Of a DNA stretch of 43,832 bases, positions 29,714 through 38,844 are shown in pieces. Numbering within the stretch: the first letter of the stretch is position 1; every line of letters begins with the position of its first letter. A program made the position numbers and the translations under genes. Origin of the DNA: Asaia bogorensis (GTDB lineage Bacteria; Pseudomonadota; Alphaproteobacteria; Acetobacterales; Acetobacteraceae); contig CAMCDA010000012.1 of the NCBI GenBank assembly GCA_945873195.1, positions 1-43,832 of the forward strand, read 5' to 3'. The notes under the pieces were generated by a model that saw nothing but the letters and a program-made list of their open reading frames with translations, was not told the origin of the DNA and did no database searches.

Positions 29714-30069
29714 TGACGCCGAACCAGGCCGCCGAGGCCCTGATCGCGATCCTCACCCGTGAAAACGCGGCGCTGTCCGCCATGGACCTGACCAACGCCA
29801 CCGCCTTGCTGGCCGGCAAACAGGCCGCCGCCGAGGCCCTGGTGCAATCGGGCGACGTCTCCAGCCTGGATCGGGACACCGCCGAACGGCTGCGCGCACT
29901 GGCGCGGGAGAACCAGGCGCTGCTGGAGCGCGCCCTGACCGTGCAGGGGCGGGTGATCACGCTGATCGCCGGGGCTGGAGCCGGGGAGCAGGCGCCGCGC
30001 TACGGAGCGGCGGGCCGGCTTGCCGCGGTCCAGCGCATCGCCCCCCGCGCGCTGTCAGCGCGCGCCTGA
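29710..30069 (+). CDS. FlgN-like flagellar chaperone/regulatory protein
   Basis: A 119-residue, mostly helical protein (EALIAILTRENAALSAMDLTNATALLAGKQAAAEALVQ...LRALARENQALLERALTVQGRVITLIA). The size, helical heptads and position after flgI-flgJ suggest a FlgN-like chaperone or FlbY equivalent. No decisive motif is visible. The last residues (PRALSARA) and the stop lie inside a tandem 31-bp repeat at 30049-30142. ATG overlaps the flgJ stop. Confidence 0.65.
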   Translation: MMTPNQAAEALIAILTRENAALSAMDLTNATALLAGKQAAAEALVQSGDVSSLDRDTAERLRALARENQALLERALTVQGRVITLIAGAGAGEQAPRYGAAGRLAAVQRIAPRALSARA

Positions 30070-30142
30070 TTTCCCTTTGGCGCTGTCAGCGCGCGCCTGA
30101 TTTCCCTTTGGCGCTGTCACCCGCGCCGGATCCCCTTTTTGG
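30049..30142 (+). terminator. Tandem 31-bp repeats forming a terminator array after the flgI operon
   Basis: Two exact copies of a 31-base unit (30049-30079 and 30080-30110; it begins GCGCTGTCAGCGCGCG and ends TTTCCCTTTG) are followed by a third, diverged copy that ends CCCCTTTTT (30111-30140). Each unit holds a GCGCT...AGCGC stem; the last has a T5 run. The first unit contains the stop codon of the FlgN-like gene. Confidence 0.75.
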
Positions 30143-30151
30143 AGCGCAAGG

Positions 30152-30718
30152 TCAGCCCGCGTCAGATCCGCCATCCGCACGCCAGATCGTCAGCCGCGCC
30201 GCGCCGTGGATGCGTTCGGCAAGCGGATCGGGATGCGGAGAGTCCTCGGTCCGTCCGGTCTCTGCAACGATAATGGCACCGGGCGCGATCCAGCCCGCGC
30301 CGTGCAGCCGGTCGAGCGCGCGGGGGATCAGCCCCTGCCCATAGGGCGGGTCCAAAAACACCAACCCATGCGCCCGAGGCGCGGTTCGCACGGCGGTCAC
30401 GCCGACGGACAGAACCGAGCAGGCCTGTTCGACCCCCAGCGCCTGGATATTGGTGTGCAGCGCCTTGCGGGCGGCGGGCGCGTTCTCGATGAAAGTCGCA
30501 TGCCGAGCGCCGCGTGAGAGCGCTTCGAGGCCGAGGGCGCCGGTGCCGGCGAAGGCGTCCAGCACATCCGCGTCCTCGACGCAGTCCCGGCCGGCCCAGG
30601 GGGCATGCAGCAGCATGTCGAACAGAGCCTGCCGCACCCGGTCGGCAGTGGGGCGCGTGGCCTCGGTCGGCGGGGCCGTCAGCACGCGTCCGCGCCACTT
30701 TCCGGCGACGATCCGCAT
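30152..30718 (-). CDS. rsmD: 16S rRNA (guanine-966-N2) methyltransferase
   Basis: A 188-residue methyltransferase. MRIVAGKWRGRVLTAPP and TRPTADRVRQALFDML are the family start; the SAM motif is VLDAFAGTGALGLEALSRGA and the catalytic motif is FLDPPYGQG (a D/NPPY motif). It acts on the assembled 30S subunit. The ATG at 30718 is one base after the pseudouridine synthase stop (TGA-C-ATG), confirming co-transcription; upstream in-frame codons are shared with the synthase. Confidence 0.95.
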   Translation of the reverse strand: MRIVAGKWRGRVLTAPPTEATRPTADRVRQALFDMLLHAPWAGRDCVEDADVLDAFAGTGALGLEALSRGARHATFIENAPAARKALHTNIQALGVEQACSVLSVGVTAVRTAPRAHGLVFLDPPYGQGLIPRALDRLHGAGWIAPGAIIVAETGRTEDSPHPDPLAERIHGAARLTIWRADGGSDAG

Positions 30719-30719
30719 G

Positions 30720-31487
30720 TCAGCTTTTGCGGATGCGCGGCGGCGCGGTCGGCGCGCCGGCATCCGCCGGCAACTGCTCCCGCAGCACGCGGGCGGGGAT
30801 TTCCTCGATCCCGCCGCGTTCGAGCGTCCCAAGCTGGAACGGCCCATAGGCGATCCGGATCAGCCTTGTCACCGCCAGGCCCAGATGGCTCATGACCTTG
30901 CGGATTTCCCGGTTGCGGCCTTCCCGCAGGCTGACGGTCAGCCAGGCGTTCTCGCCCTTACGGTTGTCGAGCGCGGCCTCGATCGGCCCATAGCGCACGC
31001 CATCCACGGTCACGCCATCGGCGAGGCGCTTCAGCGCCCCGGCATCCACGACGCCATGCACCCGCACGCGATAGCGCCGCAGCCAGCCCGTCGTGGGCAG
31101 TTCCAGCCGGCGGGCCAGCGCGCCGTCATTGGTCAGCAGCAACAGCCCCTCGCTGGTCAGATCGAGCCGGCCGACGCTGATCACGCGCGGCAACTGCGTC
31201 CGCAGCTTGTCGAAGACCGTGGGGCGGCCTTCCGGATCGCGATGCGTCGTCACCAGGCCGTCGGGCTTGTGATAGCGCCAGACGCGGGTGCGCTCGGGCT
31301 CGCCGACCACCGCGCCATCGACCTGGATGATGTCCTTCGAGTCCACGAAGGTCGCGGGATGGGTGACGACGGCGTTATTCAGCTTGACCCGGCCCTCGGT
31401 CAGCATGCGTTCCACATCCCGTCGGCTGGCGACACCGGCGCGGGCGAGCCATTTGGCGATCCGGTCGCCGCGTTGAACGTCGCTCAT
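30720..31487 (-). CDS. rluB: rRNA pseudouridine synthase, RluB/RsuA family
   Basis: A 255-residue protein with an N-terminal S4 domain (RIAKWLARAGVASRRDVERML...) followed by the RluB/RsuA synthase domain: the catalytic Asp is in GRLDLTSEGLLLLTNDG, and HKPDGLVTTHRDPEG and REGRNREIRKVM are present. It would make a pseudouridine in 23S rRNA (RluB) or 16S (RsuA); the choice between these follows general resemblance only. It overlaps the amidotransferase stop (ATGA) and is followed by rsmD. Confidence 0.92.
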   Translation of the reverse strand: MSDVQRGDRIAKWLARAGVASRRDVERMLTEGRVKLNNAVVTHPATFVDSKDIIQVDGAVVGEPERTRVWRYHKPDGLVTTHRDPEGRPTVFDKLRTQLPRVISVGRLDLTSEGLLLLTNDGALARRLELPTTGWLRRYRVRVHGVVDAGALKRLADGVTVDGVRYGPIEAALDNRKGENAWLTVSLREGRNREIRKVMSHLGLAVTRLIRIAYGPFQLGTLERGGIEEIPARVLREQLPADAGAPTAPPRIRKS

Positions 31488-35866: not shown

Positions 35867-36847
35867 TCAGTCGGTTTCGAGTGTCTTGAAATCAGCCGGA
35901 ACGATGATTTCCAGGACTTCGAGATCGGCGGAATAATCGAGCACGGTGTGCTTGATCCCCGGCGGCTGCAGCCAGCAGGTGCCGGCGGACATCATCTGCT
36001 CCCCATGGCCCTCGAACTCGTTCTTCATCCACCCCCGGAGGATATAGACGAGTTGCAGTTCCGCCTGGTGGACATGGCGCACGCGGACTTCGTCGGTGCA
36101 GGGCGGAATCATGCGGATGACATGCGCCTGGCACAGGCCGCCGGTCGCGGCGGCGATGCCGAGGTCGCGATACAGCGCGTAGGGACGCAGGCCGTCCTTC
36201 TTGAAGTCCGCCTCATTGATATGGCTGACGGTGAAGCGCTGCGGTGGGGCGGCGGTTTGCAGGCGAGTCGCGGCGGCGCGCTTGCCCGGCGGGCGACCTC
36301 GCTTGGCGGCGACCTTGGCGGGAGCGACTTTACGAACCGGTGTGGAACGCGCGGGCGCCTTGCGGGTCGCCGTGGCGCGCGCGGCTTTTGGGGCCGCACT
36401 CCGCGCGGACTTGGCGGCCGGAGCACGGGCGGACTTCGCGGCGGCGGGCCGCTTGGCCTTCGCGGTCGCGGTTCGGGTGGATTTCGCCGCGGCGGGCCGA
36501 ACCGATTTCGCGGTTGTAGCGCGTACCGTCTTGGGCGTGGCCGCTCGCTTGGCTTTCGGCGCCGCTGCCCGCGCCGCTTTCTTTGCGGCCGGCCGAACGG
36601 CCTTGGCGGTGGACGTTCGGGCGGGTGCCGCCTTTTTCGCGACCGCACGCCCACTCTTCGCGGGGGCGGTCTTTGCGGGGGCGGCCTTGCGCTTCGCGGG
36701 CGCCGGCTTTGCCGCCGCTTTCTTCCTCGGCTCGTCAGCCTTGGGTTCGGTTTTCCGGGCAGCCTTCTGGCCGGCCGCCTTGCGGGTGCCTGGTTTCGCC
36801 GCGGCCGACCGGCTGGCGGTCTTGCTTCCTGTTGCCTTGCGGGCCAT
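35867..36847 (-). CDS. Lys/Ala-rich histone-H1-like tail with AT-hook motif fused to a cupin domain
   Basis: A 326-residue two-part protein. Residues 1-200 are almost only Ala, Lys, Arg, Pro, Ser and Thr; residues 81-160 are ten exact octads of the form xK[SAT]xRxxx. Residues 182-190 (AKRGRPPGKR) match the AT-hook core RGRP. The C-terminal cupin (about 205-326) shows RHVHQAELQL and GTCWLQPPGIKHTVLDY, the HxH...E and PPGxxH metal motifs. A DNA-bound sensor is inferred; no homologue with this combination comes to mind, though H1-like AlgP/HctB proteins share the tail style. ATG at 36847 follows AAGGGA. Confidence 0.82.
   Translation of the reverse strand: MARKATGSKTASRSAAAKPGTRKAAGQKAARKTEPKADEPRKKAAAKPAPAKRKAAPAKTAPAKSGRAVAKKAAPARTSTAKAVRPAAKKAARAAAPKAKRAATPKTVRATTAKSVRPAAAKSTRTATAKAKRPAAAKSARAPAAKSARSAAPKAARATATRKAPARSTPVRKVAPAKVAAKRGRPPGKRAAATRLQTAAPPQRFTVSHINEADFKKDGLRPYALYRDLGIAAATGGLCQAHVIRMIPPCTDEVRVRHVHQAELQLVYILRGWMKNEFEGHGEQMMSAGTCWLQPPGIKHTVLDYSADLEVLEIIVPADFKTLETD
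36368..36607 (-). repeat. Ten tandem 24-bp degenerate coding repeats
   Basis: Codons 81-160 of the cupin gene are ten 8-codon units, each with Lys at position 2 and Arg at position 5. The DNA copies are diverged (TTCGCGG-type starts on the plus strand), so the repeat is kept by protein selection or is old. Confidence 0.85.
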
Positions 36848-36909
36848 CACGTTTCCCTTCGTTTGGGCTATCGCCTTTCGTACATTATCCGCACCGGACT
36901 CGGCTGTCT

Positions 36910-37968
36910 TCAAGTGGGCGTGACAAAGCTGATCGCCGAAGGGCTCCCGATGCGAATCACCAGCCCCGTTGCGGTCAGGCCACCTGTTGCGGGATCGATC
37001 CGGAATGCCGTGATGTCGTCGCTGTCCTGGTTGGCGGCATATAGATGTTGGCCATACGGATCGATCGCAAAGAACCTGGGCCGGACACCACCCGTTGGCG
37101 TGTGACCTAAATATGACAAATGTCCCGTCGCCGGATCGACCGCATAGCGCACCACGCTGTCCTGCCCGCGATTCGATACGTACAGGAACCGTCCATCGGC
37201 CGAGGTCGCGATTTCCGCCGTCGTGTTCCGGCCTGCATGACCTTCCGGCAGCGTCGTGACGGTCTGCGATTCGGCGGCGAATCCGGTGTCTCGATTCCAT
37301 TGGAAGGCCGTGACGGTCGAATCGAGTTCATTGTTCACATACAGAACCGGCAGGCTCGGGTGGAACACCGTATGACGTGGCGCGGCGCCGGCGCGGGATG
37401 GGACGGAGCCTTGCGCGGTTGGCGTGATGCCGGCGTTCTCGAACCGAAAGATGAAGGTGCAATCGAAGCCCTTGTCGGGGATGATGACGAAGCGGCCGGA
37501 TGGATCGAAGATCACGGCGTGCGGATGTGACGACGGCTGCTGCACCGGGTCGGGGCCTGGCGTGCCCATCAGTACATGCACCTGGCTGACGGGTTGCAGC
37601 GACCCATCCTCGGCCAGCGGCATCACCGCGACCGTTCCCGTGGTGTAGTTCGCGATCACCAGATGCCGTTCCGTGGGATCGAGCGCCGCATCCACCGGGT
37701 TGTTGCCCAGGCAGTCCTGCTGGTTGATCGGCGCCAGATAACCGGTCGCGCGGTCGATCGAGAACGCGCTGATCAGCTCCCGCCCGCCATGCACGCTGTA
37801 TAGGCGTGTAGAGTCACGATTGAGCGTGAACAGCGACGGGTTCTCCCACCCCCCGATGTGCTGGATATGCGTCCAGGCGCCGCTGGCCGGATCGATGCGA
37901 TAGACGTTGATGCCGTTGCCGCGCCCAGCGCGGTCCGGCGTTGTGTAGCCACCGACATAGGCGAACAT
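36910..37968 (-). CDS. Lactonase family beta-propeller (6-phosphogluconolactonase/YbhE-like)
   Basis: A 352-residue seven-bladed propeller-like protein. It starts MFAYVGGYTTPDRAGRGNGINVYRIDPASGAW, the family N-terminus, followed by the blade motifs NPSLFTLNRDSTRLYSV, NNPVDAALDPTERHLVIANYTTGTV, SHPHAVIFDPSGRFVIIPDKG and NTTAEIATSADGRFLYVSNRGQDSV. E. coli YbhE hydrolyses 6-phosphogluconolactone; related carboxy-muconate lactonising enzymes also exist. A GGAGG precedes the ATG. It belongs to the minus-strand cluster with the cupin and amidohydrolase. Confidence 0.9.
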   Translation of the reverse strand: MFAYVGGYTTPDRAGRGNGINVYRIDPASGAWTHIQHIGGWENPSLFTLNRDSTRLYSVHGGRELISAFSIDRATGYLAPINQQDCLGNNPVDAALDPTERHLVIANYTTGTVAVMPLAEDGSLQPVSQVHVLMGTPGPDPVQQPSSHPHAVIFDPSGRFVIIPDKGFDCTFIFRFENAGITPTAQGSVPSRAGAAPRHTVFHPSLPVLYVNNELDSTVTAFQWNRDTGFAAESQTVTTLPEGHAGRNTTAEIATSADGRFLYVSNRGQDSVVRYAVDPATGHLSYLGHTPTGGVRPRFFAIDPYGQHLYAANQDSDDITAFRIDPATGGLTATGLVIRIGSPSAISFVTPT

Positions 37969-38016
37969 GGGGCTTCCTCCGCTTTGGTTGCCACGACGAT
38001 AGCCGGTCACGGTGCG

Positions 38017-38844
38017 TCACGCATCCGGGGGACGATCGACCAGGTCCAGGATCAGGGCGCCGAGGCCGGGGTCGTCCCCGATGATCCCGAGATCCAGCAG
38101 CGGCGTGGCGCGTCCGGCTCGGGCGGCTTGCAGGAGCGCCGGCATGTCGTCTCGGGCGTGGGTGCCGTGGTTGACGAACAGGCCGAGGACGGCGGTTGGG
38201 CGATCCCCGATCCGGGTTAGGGCGTCGGGGACGAAGGGGGGTTCCTCGAGGAATGCGACCTCGACGATCGGGAAGGTGTCCCGCAGGGCGGCGGCGTGGC
38301 GGTGCGCGGCCGTGATGCGGCCCGGGGCTCGGGCGGAGCCGTGGGCGAGGAGGAGGATGGCCCCGATGGGCGTGGCGGCGCGGATGCGGGTGGCCAGCAG
38401 GGCGGGGAAGTTGGGGTGGACGCCAATGGGGGGGTGTTGGATTAGATGGGGTTCCGGCTTCGGCGGTGCCGCTATACCCCCCACCCCGGCCCTCCCCCTC
38501 AAGGGGGGAGGGGGTAGGGTCGGGTCACCGACCGGCGGCGGGCCGCCCATCGCTGGTGCGTTGAGGCCCAGCGCCCGGGGCAACGCCACGCGGGTGAAGT
38601 GGCCGTCTTCCATGAAGAACGGTACGACGTGGATCGTCGGGGCGGAGAGGCTGGCCAGGGCCTCAGCTGGGGTTGGGGCGCCGGTCAGGAAGCCGACCGC
38701 GATTTCCGCGAAGCGGTCGGTTGTTCGCAGCGCCTTGGCCTGCGCCTCCAGCACCTGGCCCGCGTCGGCGTAGCGGGCGGAGCCGTGGCCGATCAGCAGC
38801 AGGGCCTCCACGCGGGCGGGTCCGTCCGTCCGCGTGGCGGGCAT
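38017..38844 (-). CDS. Two-domain CbiX/SirB-type ferrochelatase-like protein
   Basis: A 275-residue protein with two chelatase-like halves. Half 1 has LLLIGHGSARYADAG (H20) and VVPFFMEDGHFT (H82); half 2 has LLLAHGSARAPGR (H168) and a C-terminal NHGTHARDDMP. CbiX/SirB insert metals into sirohydrochlorin. Residues about 105-128, including PPPPLRGRAGVGG, are encoded by the repeat copy C at 38477-38525, inserted in the loop of half 1. Loss of function is possible but the frame is open. It lies between the VOC gene (7-base gap) and the lactonase. Confidence 0.8.
   Translation of the reverse strand: MPATRTDGPARVEALLLIGHGSARYADAGQVLEAQAKALRTTDRFAEIAVGFLTGAPTPAEALASLSAPTIHVVPFFMEDGHFTRVALPRALGLNAPAMGGPPPVGDPTLPPPPLRGRAGVGGIAAPPKPEPHLIQHPPIGVHPNFPALLATRIRAATPIGAILLLAHGSARAPGRITAAHRHAAALRDTFPIVEVAFLEEPPFVPDALTRIGDRPTAVLGLFVNHGTHARDDMPALLQAARAGRATPLLDLGIIGDDPGLGALILDLVDRPPDA
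38477..38525. repeat. Palindromic repeat, copy C, inside the CbiX-like coding region
   Basis: CCTCCCCCTCAAGGGGGGAGGG with CCCCACCCCGGCC beside it matches one half of copies A and B. It is translated in frame and supplies about 16 residues, and so is an inserted element rather than part of the original fold. Confidence 0.8.

Follow-up and report, generated by a model that had tools for sequence, protein, structure and literature searches.

What a small bacterial cupin would do with a long, strongly basic N-terminal extension is the question raised by a minus-strand gene in a 43,832-nt stretch of Asaia bogorensis DNA (GenBank assembly GCA_945873195.1, contig CAMCDA010000012.1, positions 1 to 43,832; hereafter the window), which comes from a draft genome of 400 contigs. 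The gene encodes a 326-aa protein in which ten eight-residue units (octads) are followed by the AT-hook-like core KRGRPPGKR and then by a full cupin. In bacteria, histone H1-like tails have been described chiefly for chromatin-like proteins and phasins. A first-pass annotation of the window had emphasized the octads and the AT-hook and had suggested a DNA-tethered sensor or nucleoid-associated enzyme encoded next to catabolic genes. We found that the architecture is real and conserved and that it is built from known parts; the functions of both halves are inferred. With moderate confidence we read the protein as a metallo-cupin with a disordered H1/AlgP-type tail, the tail most likely being a sequence-nonspecific anchor that keeps the cupin at the nucleoid.

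Conservation of the basic tail

The tail of the window protein (residues 1-202) contains 34 K, 25 R and three D+E (K+R 29%, A 35%, P 11%). It has the make-up of an AlgP/PhaF-type tail, being long, Lys/Ala/Pro-rich and very low in acidic residues. The annotation had allowed that such a tail might be peculiar to this strain; that idea fails because the fusion with the cupin is genuine and conserved far beyond the strain. Among 33 genus genomes, 26 have a close orthologue (the window protein is counted among them, and one orthologue is truncated by a contig end). All 26 are tailed (95 to 229 aa); none was found in the other seven genomes, some of which are incomplete. In other genera of the same family, one genome has a tail-less version (G039) and one a tail of 54 aa (G046).

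In a scan of named genomes the best 80 of 156 relatives were kept (loci L034 to L113), so that the tail shares given here are not unbiased; 61 of the 80 loci carry a tail. Loci L034 to L063, which include 24 of the 26 genus sequences, are tailed in 28 of 30 cases (54 to 208 aa), and the distant loci L064 to L113 in 33 of 50 (25 to 94 aa; 15 have none and two are weak). Thirty of the 33 tailed distant loci belong to Hyphomicrobiales (Bradyrhizobium, Rhodopseudomonas, Pseudolabrys, Xanthobacteraceae and others). Ten of the 11 beta- and gammaproteobacterial loci have no tail and one is weak (L093). An N-terminus was labeled a tail at a net charge of at least +10 and a length of at least 20 residues, thresholds of our own choice that left two rows "weak". 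Start codons were assigned by a rule preferring Met-Ala (MA[KRD] motif), four being set by hand. The start ATG of the window gene is preceded by GAAGGGAA, and the orthologues show a purine-rich stretch and then the MA[KRD] start.

The tail label clusters on a cupin tree of 83 rows (window included): the three labels need four changes, compared with a mean of 19.3 after shuffling, on a tree with many unresolved forks. A class-wide search found the cupin at E up to 1e-20 in 79 of 385 genomes. At 30 of these loci the N-termini were judged by eye, and four were tailed (the window, L116, L117 and L131; L116 looks the same as L066), one weakly basic (L120) and 25 without a tail. L131 is from another family (G162); its cupin is 51% identical and it has a 47-aa basic N-terminal tail of its own, which may be an independent gain. 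From this spread of tailed and tail-less forms, the trait is either old or recurrent, and it is missing in some near kin.

The ratio of nonsynonymous to synonymous substitution (dN/dS) for the tail is below 1 in all 56 computable pairs of 58 (range 0.02-0.68), so the tail is a real protein and a misread frame is ruled out. The cupin values are 0.04-0.27, and the tail value exceeds the cupin value in most pairs. Over 12 pairs, the K/R positions of the tail are 81% identical and 87% basic, followed by Ala (74% identity), Pro (66%), Thr (45%) and Ser (39%). The pairs for both sets of figures were chosen by hand. It was concluded that purifying selection acts on the tail and that charge rather than sequence is retained. 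A 40-aa Lys/Ala-rich basic segment is present in 50 of 79 cupin open reading frames (ORFs). The same 80 loci contain 3836 other ORFs, counting spurious ones, and just one of these has such a segment; the idea that tails are common to ORFs of these regions in general was therefore rejected. Copying of the tail as DNA from elsewhere in the genome was also rejected, as no second DNA match to it was found in the genome of the window.

These figures bear on neutral low-complexity growth, in which repeat slippage in high-GC DNA would extend a dispensable N-terminus and the charge would be a by-product. Tail length and period vary by species, tandem arrays of 24, 22 and 15 bp lie inside the tail-coding DNA, some close relatives have no tail, and the excess of tail over cupin dN/dS points the same way. 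This explanation is nevertheless improbable, given the purifying selection in every computable pair, the preferential retention of basic residues, the similarity of the short tails across Bradyrhizobium and the rarity of such segments in neighboring ORFs.

The repeats themselves are real. Ten successive octads with K at position 2 and R at position 5 span residues 81-160 as annotated, whereas no run longer than three arose when the tail was shuffled 2000 times, and the AT-hook-like core stands at residues 182-190. Neither feature is what the family conserves. By lag analysis no eight-residue period was found in the nearest relative (L034), and long tails have different periods (17 in L054; 5 in L035, L041, L047 and L051) or, in many cases, no periodicity above shuffles. 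The tail of L079 (Rhodopseudomonas) stands apart from the rest in having a charge period of four residues and some acidic ones. KRGRPPGKR has the GRP core and basic flanks of an AT-hook; GRP cores occur in 13 of the 26 genus tails, with a maximum of eight in a single tail, and in none of the 33 distant tails. The octads or the AT-hook as a conserved functional unit were thus rejected. The ten octads are a local version of the tail, and the conserved property is charge and composition.

The cupin half and its putative metal site

The annotated complete cupin was borne out by structure prediction and alignment. The domain folds in the predicted model (predicted local distance difference test score, pLDDT, 95) into the double-stranded beta-helix barrel of the cupin superfamily. 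The residues HxHx4Q and a late His (HxHx4Q...H), which correspond to cupin motifs 1 and 2, are kept in 82 of 82 rows, and HxHx4Q is visible in 29 of the 30 loci from the class-wide search. Glu is usual in cupins at the position held here by Gln. The Pfam Cupin_2 model (PF07883) scored 23.3 bits, below its gathering cut-off of 27.2, and for this reason the protein is filed under the cupin superfamily by fold.

The closest structure is 2o8q (BXE_C0505 of Burkholderia xenovorans LB400), a 134-aa chain without a comparable tail; a literature search by title among open-license papers, the scope of all literature searches here, returned crystallographic methods papers for it. KdgF (5fq0, 5fpx, 7zyc) shares the cupin fold and the HxHx4Q...H arrangement with the window cupin (profile E about 0.002). 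It differs in its short tail-less chains, in its low identity (12-19% by Foldseek) and, by entry title, in belonging to the pectin pathway. The cupin half is probably a metallo-cupin enzyme with a KdgF-like site in a small barrel, because of these residues and because some tail-less plasmid homologues sit in aromatic-catabolism clusters. There are 23 plasmid records, all below 60% identity. The three that were read are all too short for a tail, and two of them lie with VOC and fumarylacetoacetate-hydrolase genes plus an aromatic hydroxylase or amidohydrolase gene; no such neighborhood was found at the third locus.

The plasmid loci also suggest a tail that would gather an anionic substrate or a partner enzyme close to the catalytic center and would not involve nucleic acid, since intermediates of aromatic catabolism are acids. 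We consider this very improbable: the sampled neighbors of the tailed Hyphomicrobiales genes are of other kinds, and a tail of 100-200 aa presumably exceeds what such a role needs. The genome of the window has two distant cupin paralogues, L002 (G000:C95) and L003 (G000:C184); the match to L003 is confined to its C-terminal half.

Candidate binding partners of the tail

Many related alphaproteobacteria share the strongly positive tail, and the protein is therefore probably held on DNA or on another negatively charged polymer. The tail would act as a sequence-nonspecific, swappable tether selected for charge, most likely on the nucleoid, and AT-hook-like cores, where present, would add a grip on the minor groove. 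DNA is favored because AT-hook-like cores occur in part of the genus, because the Pfam model HC2 (histone H1-like, PF07382) matches four of 20 cupin proteins, and because DNA binding has been reported for fragments of the AlgP tail (excerpts of PMC9239181). DNA tethering is plausible. In the same excerpts, bacterial H1-like tails are described on chromatin-like proteins and phasins, and the tail of PhaF is proposed to attach granules to the nucleoid. AlgP and PhaF, as described there, are alike in joining an extended Lys/Ala/Pro-rich tail, comparable in size and charge to the one here, to an unrelated folded part. They differ in that their tail is C-terminal, the other part of AlgP being predicted helical and that of PhaF binding PHA granules, whereas the tail is N-terminal here and joined to a cupin.

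HC2/HctB-type H1-like nucleoproteins resemble the tail in composition and, to our knowledge, have no folded enzyme domain. The 20 proteins scanned were picked by hand, and the window protein is not among the four that match, with no HC2 hit up to E 0.1. The window protein would work like HC2 proteins without being a member of HC2. Its genome also has a stand-alone HC2 protein over the family cut-off (G000 contig C91:14676-15308; L146, L172). Matches to the latter were found in 19 of 33 genus genomes, some containing stops, and two further matches are cupin tails. The number of GRP cores in the cupin tail correlates with that in the stand-alone protein (Spearman 0.71, n=16, p 0.002).

Several points weigh against nucleoid tethering. 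The GRP correlation is only a hint, because it comes down to one to two phylogenetically independent contrasts. The GRP cores are patchy (see above), and the AT_hook model, like HC2, was unlisted for the window protein at E up to 0.1; it was also unlisted for the 20 scanned proteins. The Pfam AT_hook model is very short. In the AlphaFold model of the whole protein (28 aligned sequences) the tail has no secondary structure and a pLDDT of mostly 42-61, which is weak evidence of disorder because the tails align poorly. The distant relative L143 did not show HxHx4Q. Tail-less forms exist among close relatives (L057, L063), in Hyphomicrobiales (L065, L074, L106) and in L076, and the paralogue L002 has no basic tail by eye; cupin chemistry therefore does not need the tail. 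Polycations also bind many polyanions.

The last point leads to a granule tether: the tail would attach to polyphosphate, or would connect a storage granule with the nucleoid, and the cupin would be granule-associated in the manner of AlgP or PhaF. Polyphosphate is the main rival to DNA because AlgP, with a net charge of +55 and a KPAA tail, localizes to polyphosphate granules, whose even spacing depends on it (excerpts of PMC9239181). The net charge of the cupin tails reaches +54, and distant tails without GRP cores would fit any polyanion. We regard a granule tether as unlikely, as some of the genus tails bear AT-hook-like cores, which suggest nucleic acid as the partner. RNA is another rival because extended AT-hooks bind RNA better than DNA, according to an excerpt of a review. 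The tail would then resemble a basic ribosomal-protein extension or an extended AT-hook, and it has a weak PDB match to ribosomal eS21 (E 0.11). That match looks compositional, and the HC2 matches and the composition like that of the stand-alone H1-like protein favor chromatin; an RNA or ribosome tether is quite unlikely.

Many cupins are dimers. If this cupin is dimeric, each particle would have two tails and DNA bridging may be possible. Such a particle would resemble in layout the eukaryotic CENP-C/Mif2, which has a largely disordered chain, putative AT-hooks and a C-terminal dimerizing cupin fold, and which differs in being a kinetochore protein with nucleosome-binding motifs (excerpts of PMC7360964); the comparison is offered as an analogy, not as kinship. 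A wider proposal is a conserved bacterial family of dimeric, nucleoid-associated metallo-cupins with this CENP-C-like layout, whose H1-like tails would bind and bridge the chromosome and whose metal or ligand occupancy in the barrel would modulate DNA packing. We judge it unlikely. JMJD6 is likewise a cupin-fold (JmjC) enzyme with an AT-hook-like motif; it differs as a 2-oxoglutarate oxygenase whose AT-hook-like stretch (299-317) lies at the end of the fold, and evidence that this stretch binds DNA is absent according to the excerpted review (PMC5352680).

Gene neighborhood, promoter-like site and significance

The features of the locus are collected in Table 1. The proposed link to catabolic genes is mainly local. 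Of the L034-L063 loci, 29 have enough upstream DNA, and in 19 of these the lactonase gene is the next one upstream; a close copy of the amidohydrolase beside the cupin was found in L034 only. The loci of L035, L054 and L085 contain distant amidohydrolase homologues (25-30% identity), the one in L085 adjoining the cupin on the opposite strand, and remote homologues of the monooxygenase-like gene of the window lie about 5 kb away in L090, L091 and L098. The sampled Hyphomicrobiales neighbors differ, being phosphoribosyltransferase, DUF188, metal ATPase and nucleoside transporter genes. The neighbor clusters include spurious antisense ORFs, and seven clusters were annotated.

Table 1. Features of the tailed cupin locus (positions in the window)
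Feature	Coordinates	Strand	Basis
Tailed cupin gene, 326 aa	35867..36847	minus	ORF and translation; orthologues with same architecture
N-terminal polycationic Lys/Arg/Ala/Pro tail, residues 1-202	36242..36847	minus	composition, selection, charge, structure prediction
Ten octads (K at 2, R at 5), residues 81-160	36368..36607	minus	translation and shuffle test
KRGRPPGKR, AT-hook-like core, residues 182-190	36278..36304	minus	sequence; GRP counts
Cupin domain, residues 203-326; putative metal ligands H258, H260, Q265, H300	35870..36241	minus	profile, fold, alignment
Promoter-like TTGAAG-N18-GATAAT, directly upstream of tailed cupin gene	36884..36913	minus	consensus and conservation only
Lactonase (PF10282), recurrent upstream neighbor around Rhodopila	36910..38010	minus	Pfam and neighbor comparison
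CbiX-domain protein, often further upstream around Rhodopila	38017..38844	minus	Pfam and neighbor comparison
Amidohydrolase (PF04909), downstream neighbor; close copy only in nearest relative L034	34886..35824	minus	Pfam and neighbor comparison

A separate promoter-like site, conserved in the lineage, precedes the tailed cupin gene. The pattern TTGANN-N16-19-KATAMT, written after inspecting the sequences, occurs no more than 110 bases from the start codon in 21 of the 29 tailed Rhodopila-group loci, the window among them, in neither of the two tail-less loci of that group, in none of 51 others (one locus skipped) and in 16 of 5000 random stretches. Its conservation argues for expression of the cupin apart from the upstream genes. 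With differing neighbors elsewhere and this site around Rhodopila, a catabolic operon was rejected as the defining context beyond the Rhodopila group.

Fourteen loci, some with a tail and some without, have short-chain dehydrogenase genes (one broad cluster) no more than about 4 kb from the cupin, and several, including the tail-less L063, have genes for branched-chain-type transporters near it. Elsewhere in the window, a 31-bp tandem repeat in three copies (91% matches, 30049-30138) lies just outside a minus-strand ORF (30152-30847).

The tailed-cupin architecture was not found in print among the titles listed by the literature search of open-license papers. Matches for a bacterial cupin with an AT-hook and DNA binding were all eukaryotic by title, cupin with nucleoid-associated and lysine-rich gave none, and the match for cupin, H1-like and bacteria consisted, in the excerpt available, of two separate table rows and not of one protein. 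Cupins of Acetobacteraceae and Hyphomicrobiales whose tail is retained by selection, set beside close tail-less versions, offer a natural on/off comparison of the contribution of a chromatin-like tether to a small protein, and this comparison is feasible in cultured hosts such as Rhodopila globiformis DSM 161 and Bradyrhizobium.
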